From positions 1 to 39,649 of the forward strand of contig CASFZJ010000013.1 in assembly GCA_949299165.1 (NCBI GenBank): DNA of 39,649 bases, written 5' to 3'. The translations under genes were made by a program, and so were the position numbers. Positions 26,636-31,214 of this stretch are shown here, in pieces. Source of the DNA: an uncultured bacterium (GTDB lineage Bacteria > Bacillota_I > Bacilli_A > RFN20 > CAG-826). A model generated the notes under the pieces. The model was not told the DNA's origin and did no database searches. It worked only from the letters and a program-made list of their open reading frames with translations. The first letter of the stretch is position 1. The number at the start of each line of letters is the position of its first letter.

Positions 26636-26666
26636 CAAACATTTTTGTTATACAATTGTATTAATA
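26636..26666 (+). promoter_or_regulatory. Candidate ECF-type autoregulatory promoter
   Basis: CAAAC (26636-26640), 16 bases, then TGTATTAATA (26657-26666), directly before the ATG at 26668. The form AAC-N16-TGTA resembles ECF promoters such as AAAC-N16-CGTA of sigma-W. The same pattern occurs before the candidate RNA at 28142-28172. Start-point prediction falls on or beside the ATG. Confidence 0.45.
26650..26661. promoter_or_regulatory. Perfect 12-bp palindrome in the sigma gene promoter
   Basis: ATACAATTGTAT at 26650-26661, with a further TTGTAT at 26630-26635 that pairs with the ATACAA arm (AACA/TGTT extend that pairing). It could be an operator or an RNA hairpin just before the start codon. 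Confidence 0.35.
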
Positions 26667-26667
26667 T

Positions 26668-27186
26668 ATGAAGGATATAGAACTGTACAAACTTTGCAAG
26701 AAATTTATTGATGGGGATACGCGTGCTTTTGACGCAATTTATAACGATACCAAAAATAAAATTTTTGCTAATATCTATTCCTATGTAAAAAACAAAGAGA
26801 TTGCTGAAGATTTATTAAGCGATACTTACATAAGATTTTTAAATGGGATTAAAGATATTACTTCAGACAGATCTATCCTTGGCTATCTTTACACCGTTTC
26901 TCGCAATCTTTCTTTAAATTATCTTGAGAAAAACAAACGTTACACTTCTGATGGTGAAACTTTAATTGAAAATAATGGTGTTCACGAAAAATATCAAGAA
27001 AGTAACGATATTCTCGAAGTTATGAAAAGAGTTTTAAACGAGGATATGTTTAATGTAATCGTTCTCCATTTAATAAACGGATTGGATTACAAAGAAATTG
27101 CTGAAAGGTTAAATAAAAATGAGAATACGATTAGATGGCAATATAATGAAGGGTTAAAAAAAGTTAGAGAGGCTCTAAAAGAATGA
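26668..27186 (+). CDS. ECF-type sigma-70 family RNA polymerase sigma factor
   Basis: 172-residue alternative sigma factor. Region 2 (about residues 20-90) includes DLLSDTYIRFLNG and YTVSRNLSLNYLEK; region 4 (about 120-170) has a helix-turn-helix with LDYKEIAERLNKNENTIRWQ. There is no region 1 or 3, as expected for the ECF type. No Shine-Dalgarno sequence precedes the ATG; a -10-like element abuts it. The stop codon overlaps the next start (ATGA), the usual sigma/anti-sigma arrangement. The stimulus is unknown. Confidence 0.92.
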   Translation: MKDIELYKLCKKFIDGDTRAFDAIYNDTKNKIFANIYSYVKNKEIAEDLLSDTYIRFLNGIKDITSDRSILGYLYTVSRNLSLNYLEKNKRYTSDGETLIENNGVHEKYQESNDILEVMKRVLNEDMFNVIVLHLINGLDYKEIAERLNKNENTIRWQYNEGLKKVREALKE

Positions 27187-28115
27187 CAAACCTAGAAGAA
27201 GAAATCAAAAGGGCTTTTGAGCAAGAAAACATTGACCTTACATCAAAAGAAATCCTTGAGAAAAGTAATATCTCATTCATTGGTAAGAGACAAAAATTCA
27301 CTTTTGCGCAAGGAGTTCTTATTAGTTCTGCGAGTTTAGCGCTTGCAATTGGCGTTTTTTGTGTTGCTCTAATTCCACAATTTAACTATATTGAATCAAT
27401 TGAAGATAGTATTAGCAATCGTACTTTTGCTTCGCATGTTTTAAGTTGTCTTGGCGCAAACGAATTACTTTTAAATTCGCCAGATGGAGAAAATATTACT
27501 CTTCCTCCAGAAGATGTTCAAAAAGACACACTTCCACCAATTGCCTTTTTAAATTATGCATATACCAACAAAAAACACTTAGATTATTCTTTCATCAACG
27601 AAAAATCCAATATCGAAAACGAAACATTTAATGTTAGAGAAAATATTCGCGATGAATTTCTTTCAAAAAACTACGATCTTTTCCTTAAAAAAGAAGATGA
27701 TTATAAAATTAAAGCTCTTGTCGTCAATAACAAGGCACAAAGCAAAAACCCTGTTTATCAACTCGACATTCTCGGAGATGAAGAAAATAAAGATTGTTAC
27801 TTAAAACTTAATTTCAGACCATTAAGTGAAAAATATAAAGATTATTTGTTTTCACTCAAAGAAAATGTAGATAAATCCATTCAATATTCTTTACATGTCG
27901 CAGAAAAACCAATATTCACTTGTCGATTTGAATTCCATGACAATTACAATAAATTTATTTTAGATTTACACAAATTTAATCAAAAATTTATATTTAAAAT
28001 TTCCAATTTTGGAAATTTAAATTATAATTGTGAATACTCAGAAGAGGACGATCAAGAAAGCACAACTTCTTATGATTATACCTTCACTGATGATGGCACA
28101 ATCGAAGAAAATTAA
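27183..28115 (+). CDS. Single-pass membrane protein, probable anti-sigma factor
   Basis: 310 residues: a short cytoplasmic part (1-40) with a charged helix, one membrane segment at about 41-65 (GVLISSASLALAIGVFCVAL) and a large outer domain of about 245 residues with no motif I recognise. Translational coupling to the ECF sigma gene (four-base overlap) and this topology point to an anti-sigma factor. The cytoplasmic part is short, and no zinc-binding HxxxCxxC is present, so if it is an anti-sigma factor it is not of the ZAS class. The function is inferred from context only. Confidence 0.6.
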   Translation: MTNLEEEIKRAFEQENIDLTSKEILEKSNISFIGKRQKFTFAQGVLISSASLALAIGVFCVALIPQFNYIESIEDSISNRTFASHVLSCLGANELLLNSPDGENITLPPEDVQKDTLPPIAFLNYAYTNKKHLDYSFINEKSNIENETFNVRENIRDEFLSKNYDLFLKKEDDYKIKALVVNNKAQSKNPVYQLDILGDEENKDCYLKLNFRPLSEKYKDYLFSLKENVDKSIQYSLHVAEKPIFTCRFEFHDNYNKFILDLHKFNQKFIFKISNFGNLNYNCEYSEEDDQESTTSYDYTFTDDGTIEEN

Positions 28116-28141
28116 CAAATTTAAAAATTTTAAAAAAATTT

Positions 28142-28172
28142 CCAACAAATAATTAACTAAACTGTATTAATA
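28142..28172 (+). promoter_or_regulatory. Candidate ECF-type promoter of the structured RNA
   Basis: CCAAC (28142-28146), 16 bases, then TGTATTAATA (28163-28172). Element sequence and spacing match the motif before the sigma gene at 26636-26666. It lies 27 bases after the end of the membrane protein gene. A TATAAA nearby (28174-28179) has no good -35 partner. Confidence 0.42.
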
Positions 28173-28370
28173 GTATAAAAGAAATCCTTAAGAATATATT
28201 GAAAGATATATATTCACCGTAATTGCCTTGACTCGCTTATAAACAAGATAAAAACATAACTTGTTTATATAGTTGAGGGTATACTCCCCCCTTTAATACC
28301 CTCAAAGAAACAGTTCCTCGTAAGAGGATATAACCCCTTCAAAGGTGCGGCAAAAGCCGCACTTTTATTT
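28173..28370 (+). ncRNA. Candidate multi-hairpin small RNA
   Basis: About 200 bases without any ATG and with five hairpins in order: 28192-28215 (8 bp), 28238-28269 (10 bp, A-rich loop), 28273-28305 (10 bp TTGAGGGTAT/ATACCCTCAA, 13-base loop with six C), 28315-28328 (5 bp, GTAA tetraloop) and the terminator at 28345-28366. Single-stranded C-rich segments (the loop, and ACCCCTTC near 28333) resemble the UCCC motifs by which sRNAs of Gram-positive bacteria bind ribosome binding sites. It does not look like tmRNA, RNase P, SRP or 6S RNA. It could also be the 3' UTR of the sigma operon. The 5' end is a guess from the promoter motif. Confidence 0.55.
28345..28370 (+). terminator. Strong terminator of the sigma operon / small RNA
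   Basis: GTGCGGC, loop AAAA and GCCGCAC, then TTTTATTTT. The only T-run is on the plus strand, so the transcript runs rightwards. Confidence 0.92.
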
Positions 28371-28445
28371 TGTTTAGACAAAAAAATATTGGGGTTTTGC
28401 AGTGTTTTCGAAAAAATTTAATATTTTAAATGCAAAAATTAATAA
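28371..28445. other. AT-rich spacer with GGGTTTTGCAG word
   Basis: No gene. Contains GGGTTTTGCAGTGTTTT at 28392-28408, which differs in one base from 24538-24554. Confidence 0.5.
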
Positions 28446-31214
28446 TTATTCATCTACACTCTTCAAAGATTCGCTCATTGAAATTCCGTTTACTTTCACG
28501 TACATAAATAAATTAACAACTAGTGCTGTTAATAAAGAGATAAAGAAAGAAATCACGTAGCTCTCAGGGAAAACAAGATATAACCAGCTGACTAGGTTAG
28601 TTTCATTAACACTCAAAACCATATATTCAAATGGAAGTCCAATCAATAAACCAAGTCCAGCACCAACAATAGTTAAAATTAACATTTCAATAAGAAGTGA
28701 CATAACAATTCTTGTTCTTGAAAAACCTAAAACTTTTAATGTTGCAAGCTCTCTTAATCTTTCGTTGTAATTTAAAATTGATAAGTTAATCAAAACAACA
28801 ACCGCTAATAAAACAGCAAATACTTTAACAGTATTTGTCATTGTGCCGATTGATGACATATAACCATTAATTCTTGTTTCGGCATCTTCTTTAGTTAAAC
28901 AAGAATAAACATAATTTGAATTATTAATAATATATTCTTTTATTGATTTAGGATCGGTGCCATCACTTAGATTAATCCACGCCCCATTAGATGAGGTAAA
29001 AAGTTCTGGCTCACTTTCAACATACATATAAATTCCATTTACAAAAAAAGCATAGAAAATGTATCCAACTTCTTTTTTATAAATCTTTCCATTAACATCA
29101 AAAGTTACAACATCTCCAATAGTTACTCCTAAATCTTCAGCTTTAGCTTGGGTGATAGCAACTGTATTTTCTTCCCGCTTTCCATCCGGAAGTTCATCAT
29201 CAAAACCAAAAAATTTAGAATCTTTTTCAACTCCATAAAGCGAAGTTGAAACGGAACCATTATCACTATTTACAGTCACTTGAGTTGTTGAATATTCTTC
29301 AACTTGCGAAACACCATCTATAGTTAAAAGTTCTTCTTTAGCCACTCCTCTTTCTGGTGAGCCATTTAAAGTTACAGTTACATCAGAATTGAAAAAATTG
29401 TCTAAATCATGGTCTTTCCCATAATTTATAGTATCATCGATGCCCATTCCACAAATGAGTAAACCAGTGCAGCCCATAACACCAATTACAACCATTAAAG
29501 ATTTAGCAAAGTGAACTTTAATGTTTCTAATTGCCATCATAAATGAAGTATTTTTGATTAAATGTTTATGAGCTTTGAAGCGAGAAATTTTAGGAGATTT
29601 AGTTCTCATAGTTTCACTTGGTAAAAGTCTTAATTCGCTATATAAAAGCGCAATTGTTAATCCACTCACAAGAATAACTAAGATTAGAGTTGTGATCAGC
29701 GCAGTAATCCAAGGGAATAAATAAGTTAAAGATGGAATTGAGTATAAAATGTCATATTTTATATTCATTATATATGGAAGCAAAATTGGACCAATTATTA
29801 GACCAATTATAATTCCTAAAATTGTTACAATATTCATTTCCGCTAAATAATATAAAGCAATATGAACCTTTTTAATTCCAAGTGCCTTAAATGTACCGAT
29901 TTGGACACGGTCTTTTAAAATTAAAGAAGAAATTGTCGTTAAAACAATAAGTAAAGCAACTACGAAGAAAATAATAGGGAAAACTAATGTTAATTGTTTT
30001 GCTTGATTGATGTCATTTTCAACCGACAGCATACTTGGGTAATTTGAACGAGGAAGCGAAGCAAGTAAATTATTTTCATCTTTACTTTCGTAATATCGAT
30101 TTATGTTATTTTCAAAATCACCAATTTTTACATTTGAAGGGAGTTTTACAAGGATTTGATTGAAAAAAGAGGACATAAATTCTTCAAATTGGACATTACT
30201 TCTGTCATCAATTTCGGTTGTTAATGAATTAATCGAAAGAAGAACGAGCGCATCAAGTTGCATTGCGTTATCCCCTTCTTTTAAATAATCATTAACACTT
30301 GTAAGCAAAGTATTTAAAAGTTGATTTTCGCTTGTTTCAAGATAAGAATCAATTGCACTTATAATTGATTTTGAACTAAATTGATCGCCAACATAATCAA
30401 TGATATTTGTGAAAACAAGTCGAGTTGAAATTAGATAATTTGAACTAGAAAATTCTCCACTATCGAGATTTTCTGGATGGTTCATAATTCCATTAATACT
30501 TGCTTCAAATTCAATTACATCATCTTTAAAAATAGTTTCTACGACTTGAATTATGATGTTTCCAATTTCTGTAGAATAATTTCTAACTAAATTATCAATT
30601 AAAGTTTTAATATTCTCGTTAATTTCTCTCCCTTCAAGCATTAAATTAACAAGTTCAACAAGAGAATCTGGATCACTTGCTAAATTTCTAACCATCTGCT
30701 TGATGTAATTTGCATCAAAATTGATAGGTAAAGTATCACCTAATTTTAATTTTTTGGCATTATTATCTTCATATCTTTGAACAAGGGCACGATCAACAAA
30801 AAAGAAATTATTATCATTATAATAACCAACTTCTAGATTATAAGGTTTGTTAATTGTTGGGAGTTTATCCATTAATAAGGCACTGACGCTAGTTGAGCCA
30901 ATACTAGAAGGGATATAAAATCTTGTTTCTACCGCTCCTCCTTCATCAACATGTGCCTCTTTTTTTATAAACTCTAAATCTTTTTTACCATCTTCAAGAT
31001 TTGTAAAATTTGGATTTATCGTAATCCATTCATCAGCTACATTACCAACTTTATAAACTTCATTAACTCTATTTTCAAAACTTTGAGCATTTGCATCTAG
31101 ACCAACGTATAAAGTTACTGAAATTCCAATAATAAAAATAATCGATAAAAATTGTCGAAAATTTTTAAAAATATCTCTAAATAGTTTTTTAGCTAATGTT
31201 TTAAAAAGACGCAT
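28446..31214 (-). CDS. ABC transporter permease with two FtsX domains
   Basis: 922-residue permease. One helix at about 20-40, an outer domain of roughly 360 residues, a block of three helices at about 405-540, a helix near 580, a second outer domain of about 160 residues and three C-terminal helices. The two halves repeat each other: TFKALGIKKVHIALYYL and TLKVLGFSRTRIVMSLL stand at equivalent places. This is the long FtsX type found with a separate MacB/LolD-like ATPase, encoded one base upstream. Substrate unknown; position behind cls may hint at envelope lipids. Confidence 0.88.
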   Translation of the reverse strand: MRLFKTLAKKLFRDIFKNFRQFLSIIFIIGISVTLYVGLDANAQSFENRVNEVYKVGNVADEWITINPNFTNLEDGKKDLEFIKKEAHVDEGGAVETRFYIPSSIGSTSVSALLMDKLPTINKPYNLEVGYYNDNNFFFVDRALVQRYEDNNAKKLKLGDTLPINFDANYIKQMVRNLASDPDSLVELVNLMLEGREINENIKTLIDNLVRNYSTEIGNIIIQVVETIFKDDVIEFEASINGIMNHPENLDSGEFSSSNYLISTRLVFTNIIDYVGDQFSSKSIISAIDSYLETSENQLLNTLLTSVNDYLKEGDNAMQLDALVLLSINSLTTEIDDRSNVQFEEFMSSFFNQILVKLPSNVKIGDFENNINRYYESKDENNLLASLPRSNYPSMLSVENDINQAKQLTLVFPIIFFVVALLIVLTTISSLILKDRVQIGTFKALGIKKVHIALYYLAEMNIVTILGIIIGLIIGPILLPYIMNIKYDILYSIPSLTYLFPWITALITTLILVILVSGLTIALLYSELRLLPSETMRTKSPKISRFKAHKHLIKNTSFMMAIRNIKVHFAKSLMVVIGVMGCTGLLICGMGIDDTINYGKDHDLDNFFNSDVTVTLNGSPERGVAKEELLTIDGVSQVEEYSTTQVTVNSDNGSVSTSLYGVEKDSKFFGFDDELPDGKREENTVAITQAKAEDLGVTIGDVVTFDVNGKIYKKEVGYIFYAFFVNGIYMYVESEPELFTSSNGAWINLSDGTDPKSIKEYIINNSNYVYSCLTKEDAETRINGYMSSIGTMTNTVKVFAVLLAVVVLINLSILNYNERLRELATLKVLGFSRTRIVMSLLIEMLILTIVGAGLGLLIGLPFEYMVLSVNETNLVSWLYLVFPESYVISFFISLLTALVVNLFMYVKVNGISMSESLKSVDE

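Follow-up and report, generated by a model that had tools for sequence, protein, structure and literature searches.

Organisation of the locus

The window (the whole stretch of 39,649 nucleotides from an uncultured bacterium that was analysed here) carries on its plus strand a gene for an ECF sigma factor, a gene for a putative anti-sigma or sensor protein, and a small RNA gene with an approximate length of 195 nt as given by its inferred ends, followed by a convergent gene for an FtsX-type ABC permease (Table 1). The same order is kept in all five genomes in which the RNA was found. The sigma protein (172 aa) contains regions 2 and 4 only, which is the layout of ECF sigma factors; its own ATG is preceded by AAC-N16-TGTATT, and an anti-sigma partner appears, by position, to be co-encoded.

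Table 1. Features of the sigma factor operon and the adjacent small RNA gene (positions in the window)
Feature	Position	Strand	Description
ECF-type promoter, sigma operon	26636..26662	+	CAAAC-N16-TGTATT; in 5/5 sigma-carrying genomes
ECF sigma factor	26668..27186	+	Pfam PF04542 (1.6e-10), PF08281 (1.1e-8)
Putative anti-sigma / sensor protein	27183..28115	+	overlaps the sigma stop codon
ECF-type promoter, RNA	28142..28168	+	CCAAC-N16-TGTATT
Small RNA gene	28174..28370	+	5' end inferred from promoter, 3' end from terminator
Hairpin H1	28192-28215	+	8 bp; 5/8 pairs covary
Hairpin H2	28238-28269	+	10 bp, perfect; arms TATAAACAAG/CTTGTTTATA; invariant in five sequences
Hairpin H3	28273-28305	+	10 bp, perfect; displays the C6 loop; 8/10 pairs covary, loop conserved
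Six-C run, putative seed 1	28286..28291	+	UCCCCCCUUUA kept in 5/5
Hairpin H4	28315-28328	+	5 bp
ACCCCTTCA, putative seed 2	28333..28341	+	single-stranded, conserved in 5/5
Intrinsic terminator	28341-28370	+	hairpin 28341-28366, 11 bp, then T-rich

The anti-sigma role of the second protein is suggested by its position and by the overlap of the two reading frames. It combines short N-terminal helices, a hydrophobic segment (recognised by eye) and a C-terminal domain rich in beta strands; Pfam gave no match. Its AlphaFold2 model reached a mean pLDDT of 70.7, with residues 16-71 unreliable, and a fold comparison returned no PDB match at E<=0.001. The protein evolves fast (37-84% identity to the copy in the window).

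Fold and conservation of the small RNA

The region 28173-28370 had been put forward in a preliminary description as a structured non-coding RNA with an exposed C-rich loop. On the plus strand it folds far better than its shuffles, reaching -53.2 kcal/mol, whereas 200 dinucleotide shuffles averaged -28.2 +/- 3.2 (z -7.8) and none of them did as well; the minus strand is structured too (z -5.1). The five successive hairpins described there, two of them with perfect 10-bp stems, were all found on the plus strand, and the region is unique within its own genome. The loop of H3 comprises 13 nt (ACTCCCCCCTTTA) and includes the six-C run, for which no conserved G-rich partner within the RNA was found by eye, so that pairing of this loop inside the RNA was rejected. 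A second exposed CCCCTT was likewise located where it had been described, unpaired at 28334-28339 between H4 and the terminator. The terminator is strong, as claimed, with two terminator-like sites in 27900-28600 vs. 0.2 in shuffles, and a terminator hairpin followed by a T-run is seen by eye in all five genomes, its sequence partly rewritten. The region contains no ATG, again as described, and a peptide-coding reading was rejected because no ORF is conserved across the five RNAs.

The fold had not been recognised there as a known RNA class, and membership in one was rejected: the Rfam search suggested at that time was run and proved negative. Among the 4227 families of Rfam 15, only five tRNAs reached gathering scores in the whole window, and nothing came near any gathering score in 28050-28450 (best 17.7 bits vs. 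a threshold of 80). A plasmid-borne element was rejected, since the only plasmid match (E 0.2) covered 18% of the query.

Searched at the nucleotide level, 96 genomes (among them that of the window) yielded three clear homologs besides the window (93, 82, and 74% identity), its other rows being short, low-scoring matches in that search. A covariance model built from these four sequences added a fifth homolog, in G011 (E 1.3e-9 in a search of the 26 genus genomes), which brings the RNA carriers to five of 26 genus genomes (G000, G001, G011, G013, and G017); a second model, built from all five sequences, returned the same five only among 224 family genomes under stricter filters. Weak model matches (nine rows in seven genomes, E 0.0017 to 0.88) were dropped, the best of them, in G018, being devoid of the C6 loop. 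Sigma orthologs of at least 69% identity occur in exactly the five RNA-carrying genomes out of 26, and the protein next in rank among 59 genomes shares 42% identity. When the sigma protein was used as a query against named genome contigs, four of the same loci were recovered, all from genomes assembled from metagenomes and labelled as uncultured Bacilli or bacterium.

Compensatory changes in the stems among relatives, the lack of which had been named as refuting a structured RNA, were found. In the alignment of the five sequences, 97.5% of cells are paired and 14 of 33 pairs are altered on both sides, a level reached in none of 500 shuffles, with slid controls giving 0 to 3; this alignment leans towards the model because it was fitted to it, and an unfitted MAFFT alignment of four sequences gives 6/33 pairs changed on both sides. 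The changes are distributed unevenly (H1 5/8, H2 0/10, H3 8/10, H4 1/5), with the H4 arm of G017 misaligned by the covariance model, where CCTCGG/CCGAGG pairs by eye. The loop UCCCCCCUUUA and the tail ACCCCUUCA are fixed in all five sequences while the stem of H3 is rewritten; in G011, this stem is quite different and the loop UCCCCCCUUUA is identical. As judged by sequence comparison, the scaffolds turn over and the putative seeds stay. Covariation, synteny, terminators and conserved C-rich segments thus jointly uphold the proposed structured RNA with its exposed C-rich loop, and the additional suggestion that it blocks ribosome binding sites, in the manner of Staphylococcus and Listeria small RNAs, is neither supported nor refuted. 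On this comparative evidence, we regard the RNA as a real, conserved and uncatalogued family of small RNAs.

The exception is H2: none of its ten pairs varies in any of the sequences, which base pairing by itself would not demand. Frozen beside rewritten stems, H2 (28238-28269) may be a protein-binding or operator site. One could accordingly suppose that the invariant arms TATAAACAAG/CTTGTTTATA are the functional element proper, as an operator in the DNA or as a hairpin of the RNA to which a protein binds, with the RNA acting as a sponge or the site regulating the locus. The complete conservation of H2 next to the rewritten H1 and H3 would fit this view, as would the near confinement of the exact repeat to the RNA locus (at the RNA in 5/26 genomes, plus one other place, in G018); yet such an element leaves both conserved C-rich segments and the covarying scaffold of H3 without explanation, and there is no plus-strand gene downstream for it to regulate, the next gene being convergent. 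As an explanation of the whole locus, we consider it quite unlikely.

Promoters of the sigma operon and of the RNA

The main regulatory clue, missed in the preliminary description, is an ECF-type promoter common to the RNA and the adjacent sigma operon. The hallmarks of ECF sigma factors in a published account (PMC8103513) are sigma domains 2 and 4 as the only ones, a -35 AAC, a -10 CGT, autoregulation and a co-encoded anti-sigma factor; here the -10 element is TGTATT and not CGT. In all five genomes C[AC]AAC-N16/17-TGTATT precedes both the sigma gene and the RNA, as would be expected of a small RNA that depends on an ECF sigma factor. Before the sigma gene the spacer is 16 in 5/5, its letters differing between all genomes except G000 and G013; before the RNA, CCAAC-N16/17-TGTATTAAT is found in 5/5, with a spacer of 16 in G000, G013, and G017 and of 17 in G001 and G011. 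Both boxes are thus kept across the five genomes while the spacer letters vary. The -10 element of the sigma gene ends 5 nt ahead of the ATG in all five (window 26657-26670), for which reason the sigma mRNA is probably leaderless. We examined 30 sigma loci with their flanks (five orthologs and 25 others), and the promoter pair occurred in none of the 25 others. Overall, the comparative evidence that the RNA would be under ECF control is good.

Two observations concern the more distant sigma genes. Those of G012 and G015 (loci L077 and L084) have CCAAT-N17-CGTATT, with a classical CGT -10, just before the start codon (by eye), and this is compatible with a shared ECF ancestry of the motif. A TCCCCCCTT run behind the sigma gene of G012 (41% identical) had hinted at a diverged RNA copy there; this was rejected, as the six-C run lies inside coding sequence.

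The arrangement of the promoters also bears on the possibility that the structured region belongs to the sigma/anti-sigma mRNA as its 3' UTR, where it would stabilise or end the operon transcript, and that any short RNA is a by-product. No terminator-like site lies between the stop codon of the putative anti-sigma gene (28115) and the RNA, so the operon transcript probably runs through the RNA and shares its terminator, as such a 3' UTR would. Against it stands the ECF-type promoter that all five genomes keep immediately ahead of the RNA, as well as the stronger conservation of the C-rich loop than of the stems, which plain stabilisation does not need. We therefore judge a mere 3' UTR unlikely; both views would be reconciled by a small RNA derived from the 3' UTR and produced from the operon mRNA as well.

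Beyond the locus, the promoter pattern gave 31 matches in the five genomes vs. 12 for a reversed control. In the window's own genome this pattern gave 5 vs. 3, and a looser one was no commoner than its control (23 vs. 32). Since the numbers obtained there lie close to those of the controls, motif counting was rejected as proof of a regulon, and the case therefore rests on orthologous positions. The 31 matches comprise five before sigma genes, five before the RNA, three at pth, three at Bax1-I, four in dnaG-like coding sequence and eleven without a shared gene. While pth occurs in 25/26 genus genomes, the motif lies within 200 nt upstream of it in 5/5 sigma-carrying vs. 0/20 sigma-lacking genus genomes (in G000, on contig C4 at about 19,600; loci L126 and L280). 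A housekeeping promoter may coexist there, since the -10 element at pth overlaps a conserved TATAAT. The motif also precedes the gene for a Bax1-I membrane protein (PF01027) in G000, G013, and G017, and the exact pattern used found no match at this site in G001 and G011. By eye, this Bax-inhibitor-1-like gene (G000:C3 39405; L116 1500-2380) lies downstream of a tpiA-like gene. A perfect promoter motif without an ORF of at least 70 aa nearby was seen at G001:C18 14236 (L117 about 1500), possibly marking a second regulated RNA or a relic.

Candidate targets, proposed mode of action and known parallels

Conserved and unpaired C-rich motifs, which characterise C-rich trans-acting small RNAs, are present in all five sequences as the C6 loop and the CCCC tail. 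Scans for G-rich Shine-Dalgarno sequences revealed no conserved target specific to the RNA-carrying genomes. The pattern AAAGGGGG-N2-11-ATG had fewer, not more, matches in the five RNA-carrying genomes than in five without the RNA (8 vs. 18; one of the 8 is the RNA's own complement, and a single repeat found at G002 contig ends makes up four of the 18), and by eye no two RNA-carrying genomes share any of these leaders. Perfect Shine-Dalgarno targets of the C6 loop are not supported by these counts. The sequence AAAGGGGGTTTTTATG occurs four times at or near G002 contig ends (L144, L154, L165, and L167) and is probably a repeat that breaks the assembly.

For AAGGGG-N3-10-ATG, 80 of 136 places were inspected (G000 20/24, G017 20/21, G011 20/27, G001 20/41, and G013 0/23). 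Among the inspected leaders six protein groups, named by eye as rimP-, infA-, ccpA-, SbcC-, acyltransferase-, and BatA-like, recur in two or three genomes. Seven folded leaders from these groups form duplexes with the C6 loop at -11 to -16 kcal/mol, compared to a best value of -8.6 among 30 window genes; these energies provide no independent support, because the leaders were selected for AAGGGG. The rimP-like leader is G-rich also in genomes without the RNA. Hfq (PF17209) was detected in 0/5 RNA-carrying genomes, the control having matched 5/14 known genomes.

A target closer at hand would be the convergent ABC transporter, on which the RNA could act as antisense to the 3' end or by pairing with a ribosome binding site. 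The convergent neighbourhood is conserved, and the leader of the ABC ATPase in G017 has a run of five G (AAGGGGGATTTATG, L225), whereas the ATPase leader in the window (ATGGAGATTTAACTTATG) has no G run, so that this pairing is not conserved; the leader was rejected as a conserved target for the window, and we regard an action on the transporter as very unlikely.

Considering all of the above, we favour the view, with a probability of roughly two in three, that the RNA is an ECF-sigma-activated, trans-acting, C-rich small RNA that works without Hfq and pairs with G-rich mRNA via two seeds. It draws on the fold, covariation, conserved seeds, synteny, the shared promoter motif, co-occurrence with the sigma factor and undetectable Hfq. 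In the proposed mechanism, a membrane-bound anti-sigma protein would release the sigma factor, probably upon an envelope-stress signal, and the freed sigma factor would switch on its own operon, pth, the gene for the Bax-inhibitor-like membrane protein and the RNA, which has a separate ECF-type promoter. Transcribed in this way by the sigma factor of the adjacent upstream operon, the RNA would represent the RNA output of that factor's (probably envelope-stress) regulon. Two single-stranded C-rich seeds, the loop UCCCCCCUUUA and the tail ACCCCUUCA, would be presented on variable hairpin scaffolds and would base-pair, independently of Hfq, with stretches rich in G that lie in the leaders or the ribosome binding sites of mRNAs, thereby altering the translation or stability of target mRNAs, by either repression or activation. 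By analogy with described small RNAs, a trans-acting role is likely.

Sequence comparison alone thus connects an RNA family absent from the catalogues with an ECF sigma factor, in uncultured Bacilli that seemingly have no Hfq. Should this be true, ECF sigma factors and C-run small RNAs would seem to have been paired more than once, and the locus would provide a compact, testable system for Hfq-free small RNA action, with H2, frozen among freely changing neighbours, as a concrete lead to an RNA- or DNA-binding partner. In the open-licence part of PubMed Central, no ECF-dependent C-run small RNA from Bacilli was found, which is weak evidence of absence.

The Rfam library gave no match to the RNA, and none of the small RNAs compared here is a detected homolog. 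ECF regulons with a small-RNA arm are known best in Proteobacteria; among these arms, MicA, RybB, and MicL are Hfq-dependent, not based on C-runs and encoded at dispersed loci. RsaE/RoxS differs from the RNA described here in regulator and architecture. It resembles it, in the published outline, as a C-rich trans-acting small RNA of Firmicutes (PMC4409812). MicA, RybB, and MicL of the E. coli RpoE regulon are portrayed as small RNAs made from promoters of an envelope-stress ECF sigma factor and forming a post-transcriptional arm, with small RNAs given as the means by which RpoE represses (PMC8103513). Within Bacilli, RsaA and LhrC come closest in function, by analogy. RsaA of Staphylococcus aureus is described as an alternative-sigma-dependent small RNA in which a conserved C-rich motif is left unpaired and another site also pairs, but the sigma factor in question is sigma B, not one of the ECF type, and the RNA masks the Shine-Dalgarno sequence of mgrA (PMC3961350). 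LhrC of Listeria, in the account cited, is an envelope-stress-induced small RNA with redundant CU-rich sites and target binding that does not need Hfq, whereas its control is by the LisRK two-component system and it exists in five copies (PMC4132741).

The best reading, again by analogy, is that the RNA is most like Caulobacter GsrN in its working, and also like RsaA. GsrN is an ECF-sigma-controlled small RNA whose gene usually lies close to that of the sigma factor. An exposed loop carries six tandem cytosines, a further exposed region lies towards the 3' end, and the C-rich loop is the most conserved part of GsrN; the likeness is striking but one of layout only, as judged from the published description (PMC5869019). 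According to the same description, GsrN differs in belonging to the alphaproteobacterial general stress sigma factor EcfG with PhyR/NepR, in activating katG, and in carrying its C loop in a 5' hairpin, whereas the C6 loop here is in the third hairpin (PMC5869019). In addition, the partner protein here looks membrane-anchored. We tentatively entertain, at somewhat less than even odds, a second and independent origin of the GsrN layout, an ECF sigma operon beside a small RNA with a C6 loop and another C-rich seed, in a group of small-genome Bacilli without detectable Hfq. There the RNA would serve an ECF envelope-stress regulon as its post-transcriptional arm, and H2 would take the place of Hfq binding by offering a platform to some other protein.
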